From Pseudomonas sp. JQ170C (GTDB lineage: Bacteria > Pseudomonadota > Gammaproteobacteria > Pseudomonadales > Pseudomonadaceae), in NCBI RefSeq assembly GCF_035581345.1, contig NZ_CP141608.1, positions 5,879,016-5,943,015 of the forward strand: a DNA stretch of 64,000 nt, read 5' to 3'. This document shows positions 20,410 through 64,000 of the stretch, one piece after another. How positions within the stretch are numbered: the first letter of the stretch is position 1; the number at the start of each line of letters is the position of its first letter. Position numbers and translations under genes: made by a program. Below the pieces are notes generated by a model. It did not search any database. It saw nothing but the letters and a program-made list of their open reading frames with translations, and was not told the origin of the DNA.

Positions 20410-20802
20410 ATGTTGACCCTGGGTAATCTCTTTGTGCTGATGGTGCTGGGTACTGCTGGTGCCTGGCTGTGGCATAACCACGGATTGCGTGAGAAGGCCC
20501 TGGAACGGGTCAAGCAGCACTGTGCAAAACTCGATCTGGAACTGCTCGACGGTAACGTCGCGCTCAAGCGCATCGGCTTTGTCCGCGATGCCCAGGGGCG
20601 CAAGCGCCTGGCCCGTGTGTACAACTTTGAATTCACCGTCACCGGCGAGCAACGCCACCCGGGCACCGTCACCCAGTTCGGTGCCCACAGCATGCAGATC
20701 GAACTGGCGCCCTACCCGTTTGAAATCAAACCCGCCCCGCATGCCGACAACGTCATTGAAATGAATCAGTGGCGCCAGGATCACAACCGCTGGCGAAACT
20801 AA
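20410..20802 (+). CDS. DUF3301 domain protein
   Basis: This 130-residue protein starts with a hydrophobic segment ([20 protein letters not shown]) that is a single membrane anchor or uncleaved signal, followed by a soluble domain with [20 protein letters not shown] and [17 protein letters not shown]. It matches the gammaproteobacterial DUF3301 family of unknown function. TTGGAGCAAATGTA before ATG 20410 supports the start. Its stop overlaps the stop of the convergent GTPase gene. Confidence 0.85.
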
Positions 20803-21761
20803 AGTCGGCAGGCCTGCATGGCCTGCTGCAGCGCTTCAACGTCCTGGGCTGTGGAAAAGATCAACTCAAGCCGTGAATCACGCCGCCATTCACTGGGCTG
20901 CCAGTGCAACTCACGCTGCCCTGCCAATGCGTTGATTGACTGCCATCCCTCCGGGCTGTGGATAACCAGCTTGGCCCGGCGCCAGTCAAAAGCGCGTAAC
21001 AACTGCTCGATGCGCTGTGGATAAAAAATCTGGCGCGGATGCCAGCGCCAGCCGATGCTCCAACCCTCTGCAACGTCTTGTACACTGCAAATGGGCTCCT
21101 CTGGATTTATCCACAGACTCGCCACGGGGCCGATTTCATTAGGTAATGCCAGCTTACCCACAGCCTCGCCGGAAATGATATCAACAGGCAATTTCGACAA
21201 TTGCAGCTCGCCGTGATCAGTCCAGAACAGCTCTATTTCGGGCAATTTAGACGTTATCCACAGCCGTTTTTCACTATCCACAGGCTGCGATTTGTTCAAC
21301 ACCAGCAAACCCGCACCGGGCAGAGCCTCCTGCTGGGCAATGGGTAAGGCAACCCCCGCGGCCAATTGCTCGGCATCCAGCACCACGATGGCCGGCTGAA
21401 CAGCCAGCACACCGCGCCAGGGCGGCTGGCGCAATTGTTCCAGCAATTGCAGCGGATGCCCCAAGCCTGAAGGTTCGATAAACAGCCGGTGTGGCCTGGC
21501 CTTGCGCAGCAGCCGCCCCAAGCCGACCTGAAAAGGCGTGCCGTTGACGCAGCACAGGCAACCACCCGCCACCTCGCCCATGGCAATGCCCTGATCGTCG
21601 GTGCTCAGCAGCGCGGCATCCAGGCCGATCTGGCCGAACTCGTTGATCAGCACTGCCCAGCGCTCATCAACCGGCCGCTGGGCGAGCAGGTTGCGAATCA
21701 GGCTGGTCTTGCCGGCGCCCAAGGGCCCGGCAATCACGTGGGTAGGAATGTTCTGCAGCAT
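20799..21761 (-). CDS. COG0523/CobW-type G3E GTPase
   Basis: The 320-residue protein has Walker A GPLGAGKTSLIRNLLAQ near residue 11, the metal-binding GGCLCCVN (CxCC) near 65 and FIEPSGLGHP near 90, all typical of COG0523 metallochaperone GTPases. The usual C-terminal CobW_C region is present. It stands 50 bp downstream of the larger COG0523 gene on the same strand and may be cotranscribed with it, suggesting a metal (probably zinc) role. Unlike some relatives it has no His-rich loop. The C-terminal third contains four DnaA-box-like 9-mers in the DNA. Confidence 0.85.
   Translation of the reverse strand: MLQNIPTHVIAGPLGAGKTSLIRNLLAQRPVDERWAVLINEFGQIGLDAALLSTDDQGIAMGEVAGGCLCCVNGTPFQVGLGRLLRKARPHRLFIEPSGLGHPLQLLEQLRQPPWRGVLAVQPAIVVLDAEQLAAGVALPIAQQEALPGAGLLVLNKSQPVDSEKRLWITSKLPEIELFWTDHGELQLSKLPVDIISGEAVGKLALPNEIGPVASLWINPEEPICSVQDVAEGWSIGWRWHPRQIFYPQRIEQLLRAFDWRRAKLVIHSPEGWQSINALAGQRELHWQPSEWRRDSRLELIFSTAQDVEALQQAMQACRL
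21016..21282. repeat. DnaA-box-like cluster inside the COG0523 gene
   Basis: TGTGGATAA lies at 21016-21024, TTATCCACA at 21107-21115 and 21254-21262, and CTATCCACA at 21274-21282. Three are perfect consensus boxes within 250 bp. They fall in different protein contexts (IFYPQ, SLWINP, RLWITS, QPVDSE), two of them using the rare isoleucine codon ATA. Confidence 0.55.
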
Positions 21762-21811
21762 AGGACGCCAAGTGCTCCGGATTTTCGTCACTATGCCTTG
21801 AGCTCAGCCGC

Positions 21812-23551: not shown

Positions 23552-24439
23552 ATGACAGCACTCACGCTCCCAGATATTGCCGCACAAGCCATCCACACCC
23601 ACCTGCCGCTGGACTGGGTCGGCATGTGCAACATTGCCTTGCCGATACGCCTGGCGGGCGAAACCCTTCGCGCCAGCGCCGATGCAGGGGTCAGCCTGGA
23701 TGACGGCACATCACGCGGCATCCATATGTCGCGTCTGTACCTGGCTTTGGAGGTTTTTGAAACGGAGCCTTTGAGCGCGCAGTTGCTGCGCGAAGTGTTG
23801 GAGCGTTTTCTCGACAGCCATCGCGGATTGTCAGCCAACGCGTACCTGCATCTGCGCTTTGAAATGCTGCTCAAACGTCCTGCTTTAGTCAGCCCGCTGG
23901 CGGGATGGAAAGCGTATCCGGTGAGCCTTGAAGCGCGCTTAAAAAACGAAGTGTTCCACGTGGAACTAAATGTGGAGCTGCAATACTCCTCCACTTGTCC
24001 CTGTTCGGCCGCCTTGTCCAGGCAGTTGATTCAACAACAATTCCTGAACGACTTTGGCAATTGCAGCCTCACCCATGAAGCCGTATTGAGCTGGCTGGGA
24101 AGTGCACAGGGCGTGTTGGCAACACCCCACAGCCAACGCAGCACGGCAAAACTGAGTATTCGCTTGAGGCCTGAGGTGAGCGAATTGCCGATCCTCGAAC
24201 TGGTCGATCAAGCAGAAGCCGCTTTGGGCACCGCAGTGCAAACCGCAGTAAAGCGTGCAGACGAACAAGCCTTCGCCTTGGCCAACGGTCAAAATCTGAT
24301 GTTCTGTGAAGATGCTGCGAGGCGGCTACACCTTGCGCTTCAACGCCTGGACTGGCTGATCGGCTTCAACCTGCGCGTGGAACATGCAGAGAGTCTGCAT
24401 GCCCACGACGCAGTCGCCCGCAGCCAATGGCGTTGGTAG
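23552..24439 (+). CDS. folE2: GTP cyclohydrolase I, FolE2 type (GCYH-IB)
   Basis: This 295-residue protein belongs to the COG1469 tunnel-fold GTP cyclohydrolases that make dihydroneopterin triphosphate for folate synthesis without the strict zinc need of FolE. The signature STCPCSAALSRQ near residue 148 holds the metal-binding cysteines, and WVGMCNIALPI near 24 and NEVFHVELNVELQYSS near 133 are family features. FolE2 is induced when zinc is scarce, which fits the Zur-type box. The DNA encoding the start of NEVFHVELN contains a parS-like site. It is convergent with the DUF3617 gene. Confidence 0.92.
   Translation: MTALTLPDIAAQAIHTHLPLDWVGMCNIALPIRLAGETLRASADAGVSLDDGTSRGIHMSRLYLALEVFETEPLSAQLLREVLERFLDSHRGLSANAYLHLRFEMLLKRPALVSPLAGWKAYPVSLEARLKNEVFHVELNVELQYSSTCPCSAALSRQLIQQQFLNDFGNCSLTHEAVLSWLGSAQGVLATPHSQRSTAKLSIRLRPEVSELPILELVDQAEAALGTAVQTAVKRADEQAFALANGQNLMFCEDAARRLHLALQRLDWLIGFNLRVEHAESLHAHDAVARSQWRW
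23952..23967. promoter_or_regulatory. parS-like ParB binding site inside folE2
   Basis: TGTTCCACGTGGAACT contains a perfect 14-bp palindrome GTTCCACGTGGAAC and matches the Pseudomonas parS 16-mer (TGTTCCACGTGGAACA) at 15 of 16 positions. It is within the folE2 coding region, some 40 kb from oriC. Confidence 0.8.
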
Positions 24440-45423: not shown

Positions 45424-45526
45424 GGAATGCTTAAGTTTCGTTCCGAAAGATAATGCTGCCAATCAGAACCTAAAGCAGGAAATGCGTCAAGCGGGCGTAC
45501 GAAAAATTCTTCTGTGAATAACTTGC

Positions 45527-45565
45527 TCGCGGGACAAGCCCGCTCCTACCGCGGGATTGCCCGGC
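45527..45565. repeat. REP element between glmR and glmU
   Basis: CTCGCGGGACAAGCCCGCTC and the facing GCGGGATTGCCCGGC are a short, degenerate REP pair. A perfect TTATCCACA lies next to it at 45569-45577. Confidence 0.7.
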
Positions 45566-45585
45566 AATTTATCCACAAGAAACAA

Positions 45586-45619
45586 AAAGGCCGACTTATG
45601 CACAATCCAGTCGGCCTTT
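45586..45619 (-). terminator. glmU terminator
   Basis: AAAGGCCGACT (45586-45596) and AGTCGGCCTTT (45609-45619) form an 11-bp stem. On the minus strand it is followed by TTGTTTC, 20 bp after the glmU stop. Confidence 0.85.
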
Positions 45620-45639
45620 CTACACTGCTGTGGGTAACT

Positions 45640-47007
45640 TCAGCTCTTCTTGATTTTCTCCGGCCGCTTCCAGCCGTCGATGTTGCGCTGACGCGCACGA
45701 CCCACAGCCAGCTGGCTGGCTTCTACATTCTGGGTAATGGTGGAACCGGCTGCGGTGGTAGCCCCCGTACCGATATCCACAGGCGCCACCAGCGAGTTGT
45801 TGGAACCGATGAACACGTCCTCGCCCAGGATGGTCTTGAACTTGTTCGCGCCGTCGTAGTTGCAGGTGATGGTGCCGGCACCGATGTTGGAACGTGCACC
45901 GATCTCGGCATCGCCCAGGTAGGCCAGATGGCCGGCCTTGGCGCCTTCGCCCAGGTGGGCGTTCTTCAGTTCGACAAAGTTACCCACATGGGCACGGGCA
46001 TCCAGAACACTGCCAGGACGCAAGCGGGCGAACGGACCAGCATCGCTGCCCTCACCCATGATCGCGCCTTCAAGGTGGCTGTTGGCTTTGACGATCGCAC
46101 CTTTACGCAGGGTGCTGTTCTTGATGACGCAGTTCGGGCCGATCACCACGTCGTCTTCGATGACCACACGGCCTTCGAGAATCACGTTGATGTCGATCAG
46201 CACATCACGGCCTACGGTAACTTCGCCACGTACATCGAAACGCGCCGGGTCACGCAGGGTTACGCCCTGGGCCATCAGGCGGCGACCTTCGCGCAGCTGG
46301 TAGTGACGCTCGAGCTCCGCCAGTTGACGACGGTCGTTGGCGCCCTGCACTTCCATCGCGTCCAGCGGCTGCTCGGTCGCAACCACCAGGCCATCGGCAA
46401 CAGCCATGGCGATGACGTCGGTGAGGTAGTACTCGCCCTGGGCATTGTTGTTCGACAGACGACCCAGCCACTCGGCCAGGCGTGCGCCCGGAACGGCCAG
46501 AATGCCGGTGTTGCCTTCCTTGATGGCTTTCTGTGCGTCGTTGGCGTCTTTGTGCTCGACGATGGCCGCCACCTGGCCCTGGGCATCGCGAACGATGCGG
46601 CCGTAGCCGGTTGGGTCGTCGAGGGTGACGGTCAGCAGGCCCAGCTGCTCAGGGGTTACCTTGGCCAAAAGGCGTTTGAGGGTATCCACCTCGATCAGCG
46701 GTACATCGCCATAGAGGATCAGCACGGTGTCGGCATTCAAGGCCGGCAGGGCCTGGGCGACAGCGTGGCCGGTACCCAGTTGTTTGTCCTGCAGGACGAA
46801 ATTCAGGTCGTCGGCCGCCAGGCGCTCACGCACCAGCTCGGCACCATGGCCGATCACCACATGAATGCCCTGGGGTTCAAGCTGACGAGCGCTGTGGATA
46901 ACGTGGCCAAGCATGGAATTGCCGGCGACCGGGTGCAGTACCTTGGGCAGCGCCGAACGCATGCGGGTGCCTTGGCCGGCGGCGAGAATAACGATATCGA
47001 GGGACAT
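45640..47007 (-). CDS. glmU: Bifunctional UDP-GlcNAc pyrophosphorylase / GlcN-1-P acetyltransferase
   Basis: This 455-residue enzyme makes UDP-GlcNAc. The N-terminal nucleotidyltransferase domain has [20 protein letters not shown] near residue 7 and [16 protein letters not shown] near 100. The C-terminal left-handed beta-helix shows hexapeptide repeats ([53 protein letters not shown]) and the acetyl-CoA end ([20 protein letters not shown]). A perfect TGTGGATAA DnaA-like 9-mer lies in its coding DNA at 46893. Confidence 0.97.
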
Positions 47008-54396: not shown

Positions 54397-55269
54397 TCAG
54401 CGGATGTGTGCTAGCACACCTTGCAACTCATCTAACGAGTTGTAACGGATAACTAGTTGACCTTTGCCCTTGTTGCCATGACGTATCTGTACTGACGAGC
54501 CCAAACGCTCTGCCAGACGCTGTTCAAGGCGGGTAATGTCCGGATCCGGCTTGGCGGGTTCAACCGGCTCCGGCTTGCCATTGAGCCACTGGCGAACCAG
54601 TGCTTCTGTCTGGCGTACGGTCAGCCCACGTGCGACAACATGACGCGCCCCATCCACCTGCTGTTCATCCGGCAAACCGAGCAATGCCCGGGCGTGACCC
54701 ATCTCCAGATCACCATGGGACAACATGGTCTTGATCACTTCAGGCAGCGAGATCAGGCGCAGCAGATTGGCCACGGTAACCCGTGACTTGCCCACAGCGT
54801 CGGCGACCTGTTGCTGAGTCAGCTGGAACTCCTGCTGCAGGCGCTGCAGGGCGATCGCCTCCTCTACCGGGTTGAGGTCTTCGCGCTGGATGTTCTCGAT
54901 CAGCGCCATGGCGATGGCTGCTTCATCGGGCACATCGCGGACCATGGCCGGGATGGTCTCCATTCCGGCCTGCTGGCTGGCGCGCCAGCGACGTTCACCC
55001 GCGATGATCTCGTAGCGGTTCTCGGCAATCGGGCGGACCACGATCGGTTGCATGACGCCCTGGCTCTTGATCGACTGAGCCAGTTCTTCCAGCGCCTGCG
55101 GGTCCATGTCCCGGCGTGGCTGGTACTTGCCGCGCTCGATCAGGTCGAGCGGCAGATGTTGCAGTTCTTTCTGGTCGACCTTTACAGCCTGCTCTTCGAG
55201 CGCGCTGACGGTAGGACCACTGAGCAGTGCATCCAACCCACGTCCGAGACCCCGTTTCTTAACGGCCAT
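54397..55269 (-). CDS. parB: Chromosome partitioning protein ParB
   Basis: This 290-residue CTPase binds parS and spreads on DNA. It starts MAVKKRGLGRGLDALLSGPT and has the ParB N-terminal box IAGERRWRASQQAGMETIPA near residue 90, HTH motifs (TQQQVADAVGKSRVTVANLL near 160) and a C-terminal dimer domain. parA is 9 bp upstream on the same strand. A parS-like site lies 31 kb away in folE2. Confidence 0.96.
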   Translation of the reverse strand: MAVKKRGLGRGLDALLSGPTVSALEEQAVKVDQKELQHLPLDLIERGKYQPRRDMDPQALEELAQSIKSQGVMQPIVVRPIAENRYEIIAGERRWRASQQAGMETIPAMVRDVPDEAAIAMALIENIQREDLNPVEEAIALQRLQQEFQLTQQQVADAVGKSRVTVANLLRLISLPEVIKTMLSHGDLEMGHARALLGLPDEQQVDGARHVVARGLTVRQTEALVRQWLNGKPEPVEPAKPDPDITRLEQRLAERLGSSVQIRHGNKGKGQLVIRYNSLDELQGVLAHIR

Positions 55270-55278
55270 ACGGATTCC

Positions 55279-56070
55279 TTAAGTTGTTTGTGCAGTGCGA
55301 GATGGACGGCGCTGACGGCGTACGAGTTCCCCAGCCAGGGCCAGATAAGCCAGTGCTCCACGCGATTGCTTGTCGTAGGCCAGGGCCGGCATACCGAAAC
55401 TCGGTGCCTCGGCCAGGCGGATGTTACGTGGGATCACCGTGTCGTACAGCTGATCGCCAAAATGCTCCTTGAGCTGCGCCGAGACATCGTTGATCAGGCT
55501 CAGGCGCGGGTCATACATGGTCCGCAGCAGGCCTTCGACCTTCAGGTTCGGGTTCAGGCGTTCGCCGATGCGCTTGATGTTATCCACAAGGTCGCTCAAG
55601 CCTTCCAGGGCAAAGTATTCACATTGCATCGGAATGATGACGCCATCGGCGGCCACCAGCGCGTTGAGGGTCAACATCGACAGCGACGGCGGGCAGTCGA
55701 TCAGGATGTAGTCGTAATTCTCGCGAATAGGCGCCAGCGCAGTGCGCAGACGACTTTCCTTCATCTGCATTTCCAGCAGCACCACTTCGGCAGCGGTGAG
55801 GTCGCGGTTGGCCGGCAGCAGCTGGTAACCACCGTGTTCGGAAAAATGCATGGCCTGGGCCAGGTCGCATTCACCGATCAGCAGGTCGTAGACCGAGTGT
55901 TCCAGGACGTGTTTATCCACACCGCTACCCATGGTGGCGTTGCCCTGTGGATCGAGATCGATCAGCAGTACGCGGCGCTTGGTGGCCACCAGCGATGCTG
56001 CGAGATTGATACAGGTGGTGGTTTTACCCACCCCTCCTTTCTGGTTCGCGATTGCGAATACCTTAGCCAT
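55279..56070 (-). CDS. parA: Chromosome partitioning ATPase ParA
   Basis: The 263-residue deviant Walker ATPase begins MAKVFAIANQKGGVGKTTTC with KGGVGKTT, then DLDPQGNATMGSGVD near residue 40 and ILIDCPPSLSMLTLNALVAA near 117. It moves ParB-parS complexes. Two perfect DnaA-box-like 9-mers occur in its coding DNA at 55580 and 55913. Confidence 0.97.
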   Translation of the reverse strand: MAKVFAIANQKGGVGKTTTCINLAASLVATKRRVLLIDLDPQGNATMGSGVDKHVLEHSVYDLLIGECDLAQAMHFSEHGGYQLLPANRDLTAAEVVLLEMQMKESRLRTALAPIRENYDYILIDCPPSLSMLTLNALVAADGVIIPMQCEYFALEGLSDLVDNIKRIGERLNPNLKVEGLLRTMYDPRLSLINDVSAQLKEHFGDQLYDTVIPRNIRLAEAPSFGMPALAYDKQSRGALAYLALAGELVRRQRRPSRTAQTT

Positions 56071-56088
56071 TCTTGCTTGTGTTCCCAG

Positions 56089-56733
56089 TCATGCCGTGCG
56101 GCGCAGTATCAGCAGATGGCGTTGGCCTTGGCAACCAGGAACGGTCAAGGCCTGCTCGCTATCTACTCTGAAATCTGCCGGCAATGCTACCAGTTCATCG
56201 GCAGGATGCAGCCCTTTCATTGCCAGCCACTGCGTCTGGCCGTCGCCGAGGTGGCGCGTCCAGTTGGTGAAGTTCTCCATGCTGCTGAAAGCACGGGAAA
56301 CAATTCCAGTGAAGGGGAGCTCCGGTTGGTACTCCTCGACCCGCTTGTGGATAACTTGCAGGTTGTCCAGCTTCAGTTCCAGTTTCACCTGGGTCAGGAA
56401 GCGAGTTTTCTTACCGTTGCTGTCGAGTACCGTGACTTGCTTGTCCGGATGCAGGATAGCCAGCGGAATGCCCGGCATACCGCCACCGCTGCCGACATCG
56501 AGCCAACGCTCGCTGTGGATAAACGGCATGACGCTCAGGCTGTCGAGTAGATGGCGGGACACCATTTCGTCCGGATTGCGCACGGCGGTCAGGTTGTAGG
56601 CCTTGTTCCACTTGATCAGCAAGGCCAGGTAGGCCAGCAATTGCGCGTGCTGGGCCTCGCTCAGCTCGACACCAAGCTGGCGGGCACCTGTGGACAACTC
56701 TTCGGCGTGTTGAGGGGTGACCAGAGAACTCAA
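56089..56733 (-). CDS. rsmG: 16S rRNA (guanine527-N7)-methyltransferase
   Basis: This 214-residue SAM-dependent enzyme methylates G527 of 16S rRNA. Motif [21 protein letters not shown] is near residue 72, with [20 protein letters not shown] before it. TTG 56733 is the start: GGAGCAAAGCGC precedes it and the result is [14 protein letters not shown], the usual N-terminus. It overlaps the mnmG stop by four bases (TTGA), so translation is coupled. Confidence 0.93.
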
Positions 56734-58625
56734 GCGCTTTGCTCCAACTCGCGGCCTGCGCCGCGTTTTTTCAGATGAATCAGCAACAGGGAAATCGCCG
56801 CCGGGGTAACGCCGGGGATACGCGATGCCTGGCCCAGGGTCTCGGGCCGAGTCTGGCCGAGTTTGCTCTGAATTTCCTTGGACAGACCGGAAATACCGCT
56901 GTAGTCGATATCGTCGGGCAGGCGGGTGTCTTCGCTGGCACGCAGGCGGGCGATTTCTTCTTGTTGCCGGTCGATGTAACCGGCGTATTTGGTCTTGATT
57001 TCGACTTGCTCGGCGACCTGCGGATTGATTTCGGCACCGCCGGTCACTTCCATCAGGCCGGCGTAGTCGATTTCCGGACGGGTCAGCAGGTTGAGCAAGT
57101 TGTATTCGTGGCTCAATGGAGTACCGAATTTCTCGGCAATGGCCTGACCCTGAGCCGTATCCGGGCGCACCCAGGTCGATTTCAGGCGCTGTTCTTCCTG
57201 AGCGATGCCTTCGCGCTTGGCGCTGAAGGCCGCCCAACGCTCGTCATCGATCAGTCCCAGCTCACGGCCTTTTTCGGTCAGACGCAAGTCGGCGTTGTCT
57301 TCGCGCAGGATCAACCGGTATTCGGCGCGCGAGGTGAACATCCGGTAAGGCTCCTGGGTACCCAGGGTGATCAGGTCATCGACCAGCACACCGATGTACG
57401 CCTCATCGCGACGCGGGCACCAGCTTTCGCGGCCTTGGGCCCGCAGCGCGGCGTTGGTCCCGGCGAGCAGACCTTGGGCACCGGCTTCTTCGTAGCCGGT
57501 GGTGCCGTTGATCTGTCCGGCGAAGAACAGACCGCCGATGACCTTGGTCTCCAGGCTGTACTTGAGATCACGTGGATCGAAGTAGTCGTACTCGATGGCG
57601 TAGCCAGGTCGCACGATATGCGCGTTTTCCATGCCGCGGATCGAACGGACGATCTCCAGCTGCACGTCGAACGGCAAGGATGTGGATATCCCGTTCGGGT
57701 ACAGCTCGTGGGTGTTCAAGCCTTCTGGCTCGATAAACACCTGATGGCTTTCCTTGTCGGCAAAGCGATGGATCTTGTCTTCGATCGACGGGCAGTACCG
57801 AGGGCCAATACCTTCAATCACACCGGAGTACATCGGCGAACGGTCGAGGTTCGACGCGATGATCTCGTGGGTCCGTGCATTGGTATGGGTGATCCAGCAA
57901 CTGACCTGGCGTGGATGCATGGCCTTGTTGCCCATGAACGACATCACCGGAATCGGCGTATCGCCTGGTTGTTCGGTCATGACCGAGAAATCCACAGACC
58001 GACCATCGATACGCGGTGGCGTACCGGTTTTCAGACGACCGACGCGCAGCGGCAATTCACGCAGGCGATGGGCCAGGGCAATCGCAGGAGGATCACCAGC
58101 CCGACCGCCGGAGTAATTCTGCAGACCAATGTGGATAAGTCCGCCCAGGAAAGTCCCGGTGGTCAGCACCACCGAGTCGGCCATGAAACGCAGGCCCATT
58201 TGCGTGACCACGCCGCGGACCTGGTCCTGCTCGACGATCAGGTCGTCGCAGGACTGCTGGAATATCCACAGGTTGGGCTGGTTCTCGAGAATTTCGCGTA
58301 CCACTGCCTTGTAGATGGCGCGGTCGGCCTGGGCGCGGGTAGCGCGCACGGCTGGGCCTTTGCGGTTATTCAATACACGGAACTGGATACCGCTCTTGTC
58401 AGTGGCCAGTGCCATGGCACCGCCGAGCGCATCAATTTCCTTGACCAGGTGGCTCTTGCCGATACCACCGATGGCCGGGTTGCAACTCATATGACCGAGG
58501 GTTTCCACGTTATGGGTCAGCAGCAGGGTTTTTACGCCCATGCGTGCAGACGCAAGCGCAGCCTCGGTACCGGCATGGCCGCCGCCGATGACGATCACTT
58601 CAAAACGGGAAGGGAAATCCACCAC
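56730..58625 (-). CDS. mnmG: tRNA uridine 5-carboxymethylaminomethyl modification enzyme MnmG
   Basis: The 631-residue FAD enzyme acts with MnmE to modify U34 of certain tRNAs. FAD motif [20 protein letters not shown] near residue 11, [20 protein letters not shown] near 48 and the C-terminal helical domain ([20 protein letters not shown]) are present. It was formerly gidA. Upstream lies an origin-like region. Confidence 0.97.
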
Positions 58626-58639
58626 GCACCTCGTGCCTG

Positions 58640-59136
58640 TTTCGGGAATAGATAGGGATAACGCACAAGTATAGGGACTTACCCCCCTCTAAAGGAACCT
58701 TTTGCACAAAATTTAACCAGCTGTGGATGAGTGGCGAACAATAGAAATAAAGAGAGAGAAATTTATTAAAGCTTTGTTTTTATGTTTATTCTTATGCACC
58801 ACCTCTTCTGTGGATAAACAGCTACAGGCCTTTATTTACCTTATGTACAGCGATTCAAAACCCTGTGGTCTAGTGGCCATGAGCGTTCTGGATAAGCGCT
58901 TTAAGCCTGTGGATTAAAGTGCTACTTACCCACAGGCGCAGTTATCTTCAGTTTTGAAGGCCAGTTATCAACGGAGCTGAAGGCGAGTTTTCCACAGGGC
59001 TTATTCCATAGAAATCCGGACAGACAGGCGCGCGAGCAGGCAGGACGAGCGCGATCGCTGTCCTGAAGAGAAGGGAGTCAGGTGAAAAAAGTGCGTCAGC
59101 CGGGACCGTTGCAGGCCCGGCTGTGGATAACGACGC
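58640..59136. other. Origin-like region A upstream of mnmG
   Basis: This 500-bp non-coding region between mnmG and mnmE has AT-rich runs (58736-58800) and DnaA-box-like 9-mers: TGTGGATGA 58722, TGTGGATAA 58809, TGTGGATTA 58908, TTACCCACA 58926, TTTTCCACA 58988, TGTGGATAA 59122. A 48-bp block 58806-58853 (GGCCTTTATTTAC and TATGTACAG elements) recurs in region B at 63305-63352. The boxes here are mostly one base off consensus, whereas region B is closer to consensus. Confidence 0.75.
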
Positions 59137-60507
59137 TTACTTACCGATGCAGAAGCTGGAGAAAATTCGACCTAGCAGGTCGTCAGAGCTGAAGGCGCCG
59201 GTGATCTCACCCAGGGCCTGTTGAGCCTGGCGAAGGTCTTCGGCCAGCAGCTCTCCAGCACCTGCCAGGGTCAACTGAGCCCGACCGTGCTCAAGATGTG
59301 TACTGGCCTGACGAAGCGCTTCCAGGTGCCTTCTGCGCGCACTGAAGCTGCTTTCGGCGGTCTGTTCATAACCCATGCAGGCCTTGAGGTGTTCACGCAG
59401 CAGCTCAAGGCCCATGTCCGTGTCCTTGGCACTCAGGGTAATGGTCACGTGGCCATCTTCACTCTGTTCCATTGCAATGGTCTTGCCACTGAGGTCCGCC
59501 TTGTTGCGGATCAGCGTGACCTTGGCAGGATCCGGTCGCAGATCGAGGAACTCTGGCCACAAGGCAAACGGGTCGCTGGCCTCTGGTGCCGTCGAATCAA
59601 CCACCAAAAGCACCCGATCCGCCTCATTGATGGCTTTGAGTGCGCGCTCCACGCCGATTTTTTCTACATGATCATCGGTGTCACGCAGGCCTGCGGTATC
59701 AACCACATGCAGCGGCATGCCATCGATGTGGATATGTTCGCGCAGAATGTCACGGGTGGTGCCGGCGATGTCGGTGACGATGGCAGCTTCACGCCCGGCC
59801 AGGACGTTGAGCAAACTGGATTTACCGGCATTCGGACGCCCGGCGATAACCACGGTCATACCGTCACGAAGCAACGCTCCCTGTCCGGCTTCGCGCTGCA
59901 CTGTGGATAAATTGGCACGGACATCATCGAGCATGCTCAGTACATGGCCATCGGCGAGGAAGTCGATTTCTTCTTCGGGGAAGTCGATGGCGGCTTCCAC
60001 GTAGATACGCAAGCTGATCAGTTTCTCGGTGAGGTTATCCACCCGACGGGAGAATTCCCCCTGCAATGAACGCAGGGCATTGCGGGCTGCCTGGGCGGAA
60101 CTGGCTTCGATCAAGTCTGCGATAGCTTCGGCCTGGGCCAGATCGAGCTTGTCATTGAGGAACGCCCGCTCACTGAATTCACCCGGCCGTGCCAGGCGAC
60201 AGCCCAGTTGTACACAGCGCTGCAGGAGCATATCCAGCACCACCGGACCACCATGGCCCTGAAGTTCCAGTACATCTTCACCGGTGAACGAGTTTGGCCC
60301 GGGGAAGAACAGGGCAATACCTTCATCCAGGACCAGGCCGTCTTCAGCCCGGAAGGGACCGTAATGGGCATGCCGGGGCGTCAGTTCCCGCCCGCAGATC
60401 GCAACCCCGGCCTGCTTTGCCAGGGGCCCGGAAAGCCGCACGATCCCCACTCCCCCACGTCCCTGGGCGGTAGCAATGGCGGTAATGGTTTCACGCACAG
60501 TGTTCAT
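59137..60507 (-). CDS. mnmE: tRNA modification GTPase MnmE
   Basis: The 456-residue GTPase pairs with MnmG. It has an N-terminal tetrahydrofolate-binding domain ([20 protein letters not shown]), G1 [20 protein letters not shown] near residue 223, DIAGTTRD (G2/G3 region), NKADLSG (G4), and the C-terminal CIGK. ATG 60507 begins [11 protein letters not shown] perfect DnaA 9-mer lies at 59902. Confidence 0.96.
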
Positions 60508-60542
60508 GCTCGAAGGCCTCACAACAAAAACGACAGATAGCA

Positions 60543-60565
60543 AAACGCCCCACGAGGGGGCGTTT
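60543..60565 (-). terminator. Terminator after yidC
   Basis: AAACGCCCC (60543-60551), loop ACGAG, GGGGCGTTT (60557-60565). On the minus strand it is followed by TGCTATC, so its U-tract is the stem's own T-run. It lies 25 bp after yidC. Confidence 0.75.
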
Positions 60566-60590
60566 GTCCACAGGTTAGCTGACTAACCCG

Positions 60591-62273
60591 TTATGCAGCG
60601 GCTTTACTGGTAGCCTTTTCGATGCTGCGGGTGATGTACCACTGCTGTGCGATCGACAGGCAGTTGTTCACAACCCAGTACAGCACCAGACCTGCAGGGA
60701 ACCACAGGAAGAAGAAGGTGAAGATGATCGGCATCAGCTTCATCACCTTGGCCTGCATCGGATCCGGCGGAGTCGGGTTCAACTGCTGCTGGATGAACAT
60801 GGTTGCACCCATGATGATCGGCAGGATGAAGAACGGATCCTTGATCGACAGGTCAGTGATCCAGAACATCCATGGCGCCTGACGCATCTCGACGCTTTCC
60901 AGCAGAACCCAGTACAGCGAGAGGAAGACCGGCATCTGCACCAGGATCGGCAAGCAGCCGCCCAGCGGGTTGATCTTCTCTTTCTTGTACAGCTCCATCA
61001 TGGCCTGCGACATTTTCTGCCGGTCATCGCCATGCTGCTCTTTCAGGGCAGCCAGTTTCGGTGCCACTGCGCGCATGCGGGCCATCGACTTGTAGCTGGC
61101 GGCCGACAGCGGGAAGAACAGCAGCTTGATCAGCATGGTCAGGACGATGATCGACCAGCCCCAGTTGCCGAGCAGGCTGTGGATATGTTGCAACAACCAG
61201 AAGATTGGCTGGGCAATGAACCACAGGATGCCGTAGTCGACGGTCAGTTCCAGACCTGGGGACAACTCTTTGAGCTTCTCCTGAATCTTTGGACCGGCGT
61301 AGAGAACGGTGCTGGTTTCAGCCTTGGCGCCGGCAGCTACGTTAAGCGCAGGACCGGTGAAGCCAATGATGTAGTTGCCCTGGCTGTCCTTGCGGGTCTG
61401 AACGATGTTGTTGTCAGACTTGTTCGGAATCCAGGCGGTAACGAAGTAGTGCTGCAGCCAGGCTACCCAGCCACCGGAAACATTTTCTTTCAGATTTCCC
61501 TTGTCGATGTCTTTCATCGACACCTTTTTGTAGGGCTCCGAACTTGTCCACAGGGCTGCACCCAGGTAGGTAGCAGTACCGGTTGCGGTGCTCGAGGAAG
61601 GATCCGAGCTCGCGTCACGCTTGAGTTGCGCAAACAGGTTACCGGTCCAGGGCTGAGCGCTCTGGTTGTCGATCAGGTAGGTAACGGTCAGGTCGTACTC
61701 ACCGCGCTTGAAGGTAAAGCGCTTGATGTAGTTGACACCGTTATCGCTGAACTTCAGGTCAACGACCATCTGATCCTGGCCATCGGCCAGTTGATAGGTT
61801 TTCTGATCAGCGGCGTACAGCGGACGACCACTTGGGCGTGCATCCGGACCGTTGACGCCGGTCAGGCCGCTTTGCGCCAGGTAAGTACGCTCGCCGCCGT
61901 TGTCGAACAGCTGGAACGGAATGTCCGGATGGTCCTGACGGCGCGGATACTTGGGCAGCATCAGCTGGGCGATATCACCGCCGTTTGGATCGATAGCCAG
62001 GTCCAGGACATCAGTCTTGACCCGAATCAGGTCCTTGCTGACTGCAACCGGAGCCAGTTCGGCAGGGCTGGATTCAGCGTTGGCGCTCGGCACATCGGCG
62101 CTGGCGCCAGTGTTACCGGCCTGCGCGGTGTCCGGGAGTGCCGGGGCAACGTTGCTGGCAGCAGTATTCTGAGTCGGCAGGGCAGCTTGGCCGTAGTCCT
62201 GGTTCCAATTAAGGACCAAAACGTAGGACACGATTGCCAGGGCGACGATCAGGATCGTGCGTTTAATATCCAT
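60591..62273 (-). CDS. yidC: Membrane protein insertase YidC
   Basis: The 560-residue protein has an N-terminal membrane helix (RTILIVALAIVSYVLVLNWN), a large periplasmic beta domain (about residues 90-340) and five C-terminal helices with the insertase core (GWSIIVLTMLIKLLFFPLSA, then LGGCLPILVQMPVFLSLYWV). It inserts membrane proteins, including subunits of ATP synthase encoded nearby. Confidence 0.97.
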   Translation of the reverse strand: MDIKRTILIVALAIVSYVLVLNWNQDYGQAALPTQNTAASNVAPALPDTAQAGNTGASADVPSANAESSPAELAPVAVSKDLIRVKTDVLDLAIDPNGGDIAQLMLPKYPRRQDHPDIPFQLFDNGGERTYLAQSGLTGVNGPDARPSGRPLYAADQKTYQLADGQDQMVVDLKFSDNGVNYIKRFTFKRGEYDLTVTYLIDNQSAQPWTGNLFAQLKRDASSDPSSSTATGTATYLGAALWTSSEPYKKVSMKDIDKGNLKENVSGGWVAWLQHYFVTAWIPNKSDNNIVQTRKDSQGNYIIGFTGPALNVAAGAKAETSTVLYAGPKIQEKLKELSPGLELTVDYGILWFIAQPIFWLLQHIHSLLGNWGWSIIVLTMLIKLLFFPLSAASYKSMARMRAVAPKLAALKEQHGDDRQKMSQAMMELYKKEKINPLGGCLPILVQMPVFLSLYWVLLESVEMRQAPWMFWITDLSIKDPFFILPIIMGATMFIQQQLNPTPPDPMQAKVMKLMPIIFTFFFLWFPAGLVLYWVVNNCLSIAQQWYITRSIEKATSKAAA

Positions 62274-62275
62274 GA

Positions 62276-62521
62276 TTACTCGGCTATCGAAGAAGAACGG
62301 GAAGAGGGAGCTGGCGGAACCGGGTCAAAACCGCCGGCATTCCACGGATGACAACGCCCCAGGCGACGAACGGTTAGCCACCCACCGCGTAAAAGGCCAT
62401 GGTTTTCGATGGCTTCTAACGCGTAGCAGGAGCAACTGGGGTAGAAACGACAGTGGCTGGCCATCAGAGGACTAATGGCATAACGGTAAAACTGGATCGG
62501 AACGAGCGCCAGTTTACGCAT
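62276..62521 (-). CDS. yidD: Membrane protein insertion efficiency factor YidD
   Basis: This 81-residue protein has the YidD signature [30 protein letters not shown] with three cysteines and an amphipathic N-terminus. It overlaps rnpA by 8 bp and ends 2 bp before yidC, so all are in one transcript. Confidence 0.94.
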
Positions 62522-62918
62522 CTTGACTGTCTACCCCCACAGAGTCGGTGTTCACCACTGGAGCGGGCCGACTGCGTGCGAGGCGCTTCCAGAGCTTGCC
62601 AAAATGTTGGTGCAATTCTGGGTTTTCAATCTCGCCCAACCCTTTGCGCGCGACGATCACGATATCCCAACCGGCAAGCAAGTGCTGGTTCAGGCGAAAC
62701 GAATCGCGCATCAGGCGTTTCAGGCGATTGCGTTGAACGGAGAGCTTGACGCTCTTTTTCCCGATCACAAGCCCCAGGCGGGGGTGATCCAGACCGTTCT
62801 CGCGGGCAAGGAGCAGCAGGTTTTTCCCTGGAACCTTGCCGGTTGGGGAGTCGAAGACCGCTTTGAAGTGTCGGGGAATAAGCAGACGCTTTTCCCGACT
62901 GAAGTCCTGACTCACCAC
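62514..62918 (-). CDS. rnpA: Ribonuclease P protein component
   Basis: This 134-residue basic protein has [20 protein letters not shown] and the RNR motif [20 protein letters not shown] that contacts RNase P RNA. GTG 62918 gives [13 protein letters not shown] and the usual 134 residues; longer frames would run into rpmH. It starts 13 bp after the rpmH stop. Confidence 0.94.
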
Positions 62919-62931
62919 CAGTGCCGAAAAA

Positions 62932-63066
62932 TCAAACTGCCAGGCGCTTACGGCCTTTGGCACGGCGACGCGACAGAACGGCACGACCGTTCTTGGTAGC
63001 CATACGGGCACGGAAACCGTGAGTGCGAGCGCGCTTGATGGTGCTTGGTTGGAAAGTACGTTTCAT
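62932..63066 (-). CDS. rpmH: 50S ribosomal protein L34
   Basis: A 44-residue open frame too short for a 60-residue cut-off: it starts [20 protein letters not shown] and ends KGRKRLAV, the standard L34 sequence. It lies directly upstream of rnpA on the minus strand, divergent from dnaA across the main origin. Confidence 0.96.
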
Positions 63067-63646
63067 GGCGTGTTACCTGGTTCGTCCACAACGGGCCGGA
63101 ATGGCCCCCGTTTTAAGAGACCGGCGATTCTAGAGAAAGCAGGGCCACAGGTCAATTTCCAACCAGCTTTTCCTTATAGACGGGAAATCACTCGGATGGA
63201 CGGGTGAGCCACGGCTCGCGAACCAACACACGCTTAAACATAAAAAAAGAGAGAGGAATTATTTAAAGCTTTTCTGTAAAACTTATAGAACTTAAGCGGA
63301 AGATTTCTGTGGATAGATCGCTAGAGGCCTTTATTTACGCTATGTACAGAGATCTGAAACCTTGTCGAGAAGACGTGCTGCGGCTGTGTTGAAGGCTCGG
63401 AAAACCTGTGGATCAAATCGACGGTTATCCACAGTCGAGTTATCCACCGATTTCAGCCCCCAGTTGTGCAAAGACCTCAGGCGCGGTTATCCACAGAGCT
63501 TATTCACAGTGTGGAAAGGCCATTTTGGTCACTAAGCTGCTGATTTATCGCCACCCTTAGCGCACCTGCATGTGGATAACTGCGCTGGTGCTCGGTACAA
63601 TGGCGGCTTGTTTTTGCCTCACCGGCTTTCAACTCAGGGGATATCC
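63067..63646. other. oriC: Main oriC region between rpmH and dnaA
   Basis: This 580-bp non-coding region matches the known position of the Pseudomonas origin. It contains AT-rich runs (63236-63300) and DnaA boxes TGTGGATAG 63308, TGTGGATCA 63407, TTATCCACA 63425, TTATCCACC 63440, TTATCCACA 63487, TTATTCACA 63500 and TGTGGATAA 63571. Promoters of rpmH and dnaA also lie here. Its layout repeats region A at a constant distance. Confidence 0.88.
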
Positions 63647-64000
63647 GTGTCAGTGGAACTTTGGCAGCAGTGCGTGGAGCTTCTGCGCGATGAACTGCCT
63701 GCCCAGCAATTCAACACCTGGATCCGTCCGCTACAGGTCGAAGCCGAAGGCGACGAGTTGCGCGTATATGCGCCCAACCGTTTTGTTCTCGACTGGGTCA
63801 ATGAAAAGTACCTGAGCCGTCTGCTCGAGCTGTTGGGCGAACACGGCAACGGCATTGCGCCTGCTCTTTCCTTATTAATAGGCAGCAGACGCAGTTCGGC
63901 CCCTCGCGCCGCACCTAATGCGCCGTTGGCAGCGGCAGTAGCTGCTTCCCAGGCCCAGGCTGCACAAACCGCCGTGGTCAAGGAGCCTGTCCAGGCACCG
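63647..64000 (+). CDS. dnaA: Chromosomal replication initiator DnaA (partial)
   Basis: The gene starts at GTG 63647 after CAGGGGATATCC, the known pattern in Pseudomonas, and runs off the window after 118 codons. Domain I is visible: [40 protein letters not shown] and [20 protein letters not shown], followed by an Ala/Pro-rich linker. The AAA+ domain and the DNA-binding domain lie outside. Confidence 0.96.

Follow-up and report, generated by a model that had tools for sequence, protein, structure and literature searches.

The stretch analysed here, called the window below, comprises 64,000 nucleotides of Pseudomonas sp. JQ170C and forms the final 64 kb of one 5.94 Mb contig. Near its right end lie two regions with clustered DnaA boxes, A upstream of mnmG and B between rpmH and dnaA, which are probably two copies of one chromosomal replication origin (oriC) module. 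On the plus strand the order is parB (54397-55269), parA (55279-56070), rsmG (gidB, 56089..56733) and mnmG (gidA, 56730..58625), all on the minus strand, then region A, then mnmE (trmE, 59137..60543), yidC (60591..62273), yidD, rnpA (62514..62933, start codon position not fixed) and rpmH (62932..63066, 44 aa, start at 63066), again all on the minus strand, and finally region B and the 5′ part of dnaA (63647..64000) on the plus strand. The mnmG gene is transcribed away from A, with rsmG, parA and parB following downstream in this order. The dnaA gene continues past the window end, and the contig encodes the C-terminal domain of DnaA at C1:883-1089. Seven genes were identified with Pfam (GIDA for mnmG, Ribonuclease_P for rnpA), rpmH and dnaA from their translations, and yidD by position only.

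Regions A and B are homologous, with similarity that extends beyond single 9-mers. At an offset of 4499 bp, positions 58740-59010 share 152 of 271 identities with B, while all plus-strand placements in the window give a mean of 65 (standard deviation 7) and the runner-up offset gives 103. BLASTN aligns 58745-58866 with 63242-63365 at an E-value of about 9e-15. With mismatches counted against the consensus TTATNCACA, four pairs of boxes lie exactly 4499 bp apart on matching strands. These are the inverted box R1 on the minus strand (TTATCCACA at 58809..58817 in A and CTATCCACA at 63308..63316 in B, with 0 and 1 mismatches, respectively), the minus-strand box at +99 from R1 (TAATCCACA, 58908..58916, and TGATCCACA, 63407..63415, one mismatch each), and the plus-strand boxes at +117 (TTACCCACA, 58926..58934, and TTATCCACA, 63425..63433) and +179 (TTTTCCACA, 58988..58996, and TTATCCACA, 63487..63495), each with one mismatch in A and none in B. 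The original prediction listed a fifth pair. The A position concerned, 59001, is in register with the B box TTATTCACA (63500..63508, plus strand, +192) and has three mismatches, so it is a relic and no longer a box. A one-base shift had also been proposed for the B box TTATCCACC (63440..63448, plus strand, +132); opposite it, at 58941, there is nothing resembling a box (6 mismatches), hence it has no A partner in this strain. The extra perfect box between B and dnaA (63571..63579, minus strand) has no A partner either.

Both regions carry an AT-rich arm before R1, identified from its sequence and genus-wide conservation (58749..58805 in A, a putative unwinding element, and 63246..63304 in B, plus strand), and a conserved block after it (58827..58850 and 63326..63349, plus strand, in the same register). 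The shared lead and block noted at the outset do not have one common offset. The lead motifs AAAGAGAGAG (58749/63246) and TTAAAGCTTT (58766/63263) are 4497 bp apart, whereas the block motifs GGCCTTTATTTAC (58827/63326) and TATGTACAG (58842/63341) keep 4499 bp, which indicates a 2-base indel between the lead and the boxes. Recent gene conversion was considered as a source of the near-identical block at 58827-58850 and is probably unneeded, because throughout the genus both regions contain a similar, degenerate version of it. In addition, A contains the plus-strand CTGTG (58863..58867) at +55 from R1, an R5-like remnant at the place where Escherichia coli has a box.

The similarity between A and B is real, beyond chance and more conserved than was originally thought. 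The distance of 4499 bp, taken at first for a conserved register, is specific to this strain, and the top A-B match distance ranges from about 4.3 to 9.3 kb in other genomes of the genus; it is the internal spacings 99, 117 and 179 that are conserved. We anchored the comparison on mnmG, so that it does not depend on likeness to either region; MnmG was found in 99/99 genus and 76/79 family genomes. The DNA upstream of mnmG was taken from 60 genus genomes and 40 other genomes of the family, hand-picked with divergent ones included, and every pair of boxes was counted without an anchor, each box being allowed one mismatch at most. In the genus, A (n = 61 with the window) has the spacing 179 in 61/61, 117 in 60/61 and 99 in 57/61 genomes, and B (n = 59, since two genomes are without B in the stretch covered) has 117 in 57/59, 179 in 56/59, 132 in 46/59, 192 in 42/59 and 99 in 19/59. 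In the other genera of the family, A shows 179 and 117 in 27/40 each, with seven more at 180 and seven at 118, and B shows 117 in 24/37 and 179 in 22/37, with ten more at each neighbouring spacing. The comparison with other genomes proposed in the original prediction therefore finds the A spacing conserved there.

The A region holds on average 6.85 boxes in the genus, where Markov resampling predicts 0.45; the means are 4.97 (0.40 expected) in other genera of the family and 4.00 (0.81) in other families of the order, where 26/40 have at least three; in other orders the mean is 0.82 (0.56), with at least three in 3/40. The likeness is not confined to the boxes. Among the copies that could be anchored by the register (88/101 A and 79/96 B; two of the 59 genus B regions could not), a matrix of the non-box columns of A scores B copies at z>3 over shuffles in 57/57 genus and 22/22 other cases, and the corresponding B matrix does so for A copies in 61/61 and 27/27. 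The stretch from R1 to the +55 element shows deletions in few A or B rows of an alignment that displays no insertions relative to the window. Mean pairwise identity of A within the genus is 0.72 in the AT arm (60 bases before R1) and 0.70, 0.61 and 0.66 along the core, with 0.66 to the left of the arm and 0.21 just right of the core; for B the values are 0.64 in the arm, 0.60, 0.63 and 0.68 in the core, 0.25 to the left and 0.44 to the right. Five records of relatives were also inspected, labelled P. nitroreducens (2), P. pseudonitroreducens (1) and Pseudomonas sp. (2), with P. aeruginosa not among them. Two of them (L239, L240) have the module pair about 4.6 kb apart, and the remaining three have one strong copy only within the 8 kb covered.

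E. coli oriC adjoins mnmG with its AT side facing that gene, which is the same place and orientation as A. Like in the Pseudomonas copies, its R1 is inverted, the +55 element is on the same strand, and R4 lies at +180 (compared with +179). Its boxes are at +55, +106, +141 and +180 from R1; in Pseudomonas the +55 position is taken by CTGTG, and boxes follow at +99, +117 and +179. A sequence-only model of the module was built from 63 copies of the order with E. coli held out. It matches A at 58774..58999 (plus strand, 133.4 bits, E 1.9e-39) and B at 63277..63498 (plus strand, 126 bits, E 3.9e-37), both of which were training rows, and it finds the held-out E. coli oriC at E 4.8e-8 in 762 kb, these E-values being rough. 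The dnaA-rpmH stretch of E. coli gives no match with the model up to E 10. With all columns used, the A matrix and the B matrix each rank E. coli oriC first of 16,164 placements in 8.6 kb.

An IHF-like consensus stands at +28 from R1 in 25/52 modules of the order outside the family, with at most two at any other offset, and TTAG is found at -16 in 16/52 of them. E. coli has GATCAACAACCTG at the same +28, with two mismatches to the IHF pattern, which we take to be its known IHF site. Both Pseudomonas copies are without the IHF consensus; in the family, a match with at most one mismatch at +28 occurs in 1/25 A and 0/25 B copies. About at that position the block in both copies (58827-58850 and 63326-63349) ends in TGTACAG, and this block may bind some other protein. 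We do not treat the loss of the IHF site as excluding oriC identity, since only 25/52 of the other families' modules have the site. Among the hallmarks of a gammaproteobacterial oriC, A has the box cluster in fixed register, the AT-rich arm adjoining R1 (as has B; its unwinding is putative) and homology to a proven oriC, that of E. coli, with B at the reported place of P. putida oriC; the IHF site between R1 and +55 is missing, and as to a further hallmark, a replication start, the strand skew described below favours B, with reservations.

Across the order, the module is present in 141/145 genomes at E<=1. Set against the positions of MnmG and DnaA, among the matches listed for 131 genomes, it is on the mnmG side only in 76, on the dnaA side only in 38, on both sides in 12 and on neither in 5; weaker matches are not part of this tally, so some single-copy calls may be wrong. 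By family (n = 44), 26 have A, 12 have B, 5 include at least one two-copy genome and one has A and B in different members. Eleven of the 12 B-only families contributed no training row, and the window's family has both copies in 5/5 genomes of this sample. Two genomes of one family (f8) were tallied as B. The first (G476, counted as B only) carries another copy, which lies 1.6 kb upstream of mnmG. The other (G450) has a lone module (C18:11578-11721) between mnmG, 169 bases off, and dnaA, so that the two genes appear to share one origin module that is in both places at once. In a sample of the class, the model matches at E<=0.01 in 124/185 genomes, three of them members of the order. In a record from another order (L188:6765-6990) the module was seen past the 5′ part of dnaA, on the minus strand; the dnaA-dnaN interval is possibly a third place for it.

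The genes between A and B read leftward. Replication from A would put them on the lagging side, and replication from B on the leading side. GC skew was used to compare the two cases, TA skew being uninformative. The GC skew at 4-fold sites of mnmE and yidC is -0.231 in A-only loci (21), -0.040 in B-only loci (6) and -0.093 in the window's family (88); with loci that are not independent by descent, the difference from A-only loci has p 0.0011 for B-only loci and p 4e-6 for the window's family. Taken relative to dnaA, the skew is -0.247, -0.089 and -0.039, respectively, with p 2.6e-5 between A-only loci and the window's family. Thus, the place of the module tends to predict the start, and the family, the genus above all, seems to start habitually at B; we word this with reservations, as what the skew suggests. 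The published work fits. P. putida oriC is reported between rpmH and dnaA (PMC3056050), which agrees with a start at B, and the open complex of P. aeruginosa oriC forms 18-46 nt from box R1 (PMC5109545), which is the position of the AT arm here. The primer of PMC5109545 has no exact placement in the five relatives named above; its best placements have 3-4 mismatches and are mostly at B.

In a tree of 106 module copies, a single group (99/96) takes in 24/25 A and 23/25 B copies of the family, together with one B copy from another family. The two copies of a two-copy genome in a different family (f28) are sisters at 98/82, and those in three further families (f8, f36, f37) are not. The loss of the IHF consensus in both copies points to a duplication within the family's own line, with the reservation given below.

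Hence, we consider it likely that A and B are copies of the gammaproteobacterial oriC module, paired by duplication, that B is the habitual start and that A is kept by selection. This reading builds on what is observed: A and B are homologous and share a register, A is conserved throughout the genus, and genomes of the order carry the module beside mnmG, beside dnaA or in both places. The module would consist of an AT-rich unwinding arm, the inverted R1, a fixed spacer, the +55 element, a pair of boxes near +99 and +117, and R4 near +179. The pair would have arisen by duplication, which the shared register and the matching non-box columns support, in or before Pseudomonadaceae, and B would have become the habitual start. 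DnaA-ATP is proposed to load on R1 and the boxes from +99 to +179 and then to melt the AT arm. At B melting would lead to helicase loading, whereas at A it would normally be non-productive or outcompeted. A would be selected because it still assembles a DnaA complex, serving either as a second origin that is seldom used or as a control site near B that binds DnaA.

Several points weigh against this reading. For A, both DnaA binding and firing are putative. As the original prediction observed, A is largely off consensus in this strain, with one perfect box compared with three within the B module. Inside the genus, A exceeds B in only 5/11 pairs in the score of a model trained on other families. 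The mnmG promoter presumably lies to the left of A or inside it and could account for part of the left-hand conservation. E. coli oriC scores only 31.6 bits with the model, and on the non-box columns alone it ranks 33 (A matrix) and 4 (B matrix) of the 16,164 placements; the IHF-like consensus is lost from both copies of the family. As to the skew, the dnaA-relative difference between A-only and B-only loci has p 0.075, with just 6 loci in the B-only set, and the family splits into the genus (-0.053, 56 loci) and other genera (-0.159, 33 loci), the latter nearer to the A-only value. In the tree, the bootstrap is unsettled and base composition is uneven among the rows. In the AU test, grouping every B copy in one clade is not rejected (p 0.124), which leaves room for one ancient duplication; the same holds within the family for a clade of its A copies (0.466) or of its B copies (0.291). 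We take the second autonomously replicating region of P. aeruginosa to be the mnmG side, that is, A. PMC4403523 (citing Yee and Smith 1990 and Jiang et al. 2006) describes two such regions, only one of them essential, the other being suggested to be a disused origin. A second origin-like region in pseudomonads was thus already known, as the original prediction noted.

An extended form of the scheme we put forward tentatively, as something that may well not hold. Here oriC would relocate within the order from one of the two sites, mnmG and dnaA, to the other through duplication followed by differential loss of copies, and Pseudomonadaceae would have been held in the two-copy condition. Both modules would assemble DnaA and open. 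B would start most rounds, while A would stay active as a reserve or as a partner in timing and would fire in certain conditions.

Alternatively, A might be no origin but a DnaA-binding control site of the datA/DARS kind, timing initiation at B by titration or through the nucleotide state of DnaA. An array of boxes conserved a few kb from B would suit this role, as would the finding that a single P. aeruginosa region is essential in the account of PMC4403523. We regard it as unlikely, with an appreciable residual chance, as the AT arm is the best-conserved part of A and would be superfluous for a pure titration site, and as the oriC register is kept, not merely the boxes. Rather unlikely, too, is that A serves as a DnaA-controlled regulatory region of mnmG-rsmG-parA-parB, coupling the segregation genes to DnaA. 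These four genes do run consecutively on the minus strand from A, and to the left of the AT arm A is conserved where B is not; against this, conservation extends about 190 bp past R1 on the side facing away from mnmG, and it follows the register of B and comes near that of E. coli oriC.

We judge it improbable that A and B are the halves of one bipartite origin bridged by DnaA over a 4.5 kb spacer. Both arrays are indeed kept together in the genus in the same orientation. However, the spacer varies over the range given above, and according to PMC4403523 both P. aeruginosa regions replicate autonomously. Bipartite origins of the Bacillus subtilis and Helicobacter pylori type have two box clusters with an unwinding element at one only (PMC4285127), whereas an AT arm is present in both A and B.

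That A is a pseudo-origin in decay, once an origin and now shedding its boxes, as was first proposed, is very improbable and already largely refuted. It would account for the more off-consensus boxes of A in this strain, for the lack of partners of 63440 and 63500, and for the dispensable region of P. aeruginosa, whose former function is suggested in PMC4403523 to be lost. Yet the spacings 179 and 117 persist in all and in all but one of the 61 genus genomes, and the core of A is as conserved as that of B, its right flank not. Moreover, a model trained on other families only places A above B in 18/25 pairs (mean 64.1 vs 55.9), and a model from B copies alone does so in 15/25; within the genus, A is no worse than B rather than clearly better. 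Finally, convergence, in which any functional DnaA array arrives at this spacing, is hardly credible: DnaA oligomers impose spacing rules, the model also matches in other orders and E. coli is unremarkable on the non-box columns of the A matrix, but the non-box columns of A and B match each other and the other box clusters of the window go unrecognised save for one weak partial match.

The window as a whole holds 69 DnaA boxes with at most one mismatch, compared with 21 expected. Box clusters alone were considered as an explanation of the module matches and set aside, because the model passes over the other clusters of the window except at 410-458 (E 0.029), a single partial match that overlaps the cluster at 369-471. 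Further clusters lie at 45513-45988 and 55580-56522. Seven boxes with at most one mismatch, four of them perfect, are at 20850-21282 inside a CobW-family coding sequence (20799-21791, minus strand, Pfam cobW); the model finds no oriC module in this cluster, which is possibly a DnaA-binding control site. A perfect palindrome, GTTCCACGTGGAAC, is located at 23953-23966, about 39 kb from B, and presumably matches the parS consensus. In 15/100 loci of the family (L050, L055, L059, L060, L064, L065, L067, L075, L082, L083, L092, L110, L125, L126, L128) the distance from mnmG to mnmE is about 4.6 to 9.9 kb and not the usual 0.5 kb or so, so that additional DNA separates A from the 3′ end of mnmE.

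The original prediction thus holds as to duplication and fails as to decay, and it missed two things: A stands where E. coli has its oriC, and across the order the module is found at mnmG, dnaA or both. A second origin-like region was known; its preservation, its match to E. coli oriC in position and sequence, and the order-wide movement of the module are new. In the literature searched, which covers few subscription journals, we found no mention of a register common to A and B, of conservation across the genus, of A being homologous to E. coli oriC or of the pattern of A, B or both. We know of no agreed history for why E. coli starts beside mnmG, away from dnaA, and Pseudomonas beside dnaA. 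By these data, E. coli and Pseudomonas origins are one homologous module, and there are genomes in the order that have it at either place or at both. Origin relocation thereby becomes a concrete and testable event, and a naturally two-origin chromosome would be a system for asking why bacteria use only one.

Last, we compare the A/B pair with known systems. The two-region arrangement of P. aeruginosa (PMC4403523) and the rpmH-dnaA oriC of P. putida (PMC3056050) resemble it; the latter, citing Yee and Smith, describes Pseudomonas origins as distinct from enteric ones. The datA and DARS loci of E. coli, as DnaA-binding sites that control initiation away from the start site, may share this feature with A, and A differs from them, as compared by description, in its oriC layout with an AT arm. 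A possible functional parallel is offered by E. coli itself, where PMC12000880 (2025) reports oriK-3850, a DnaA-dependent start zone bordering dnaA, besides oriC at mnmG. This zone is seen in rnhA mutants, and unlike B the dnaA-rpmH stretch of E. coli is without an oriC module by our model. The start zone described there nevertheless makes the pair of mnmG and dnaA sites of interest in E. coli too.

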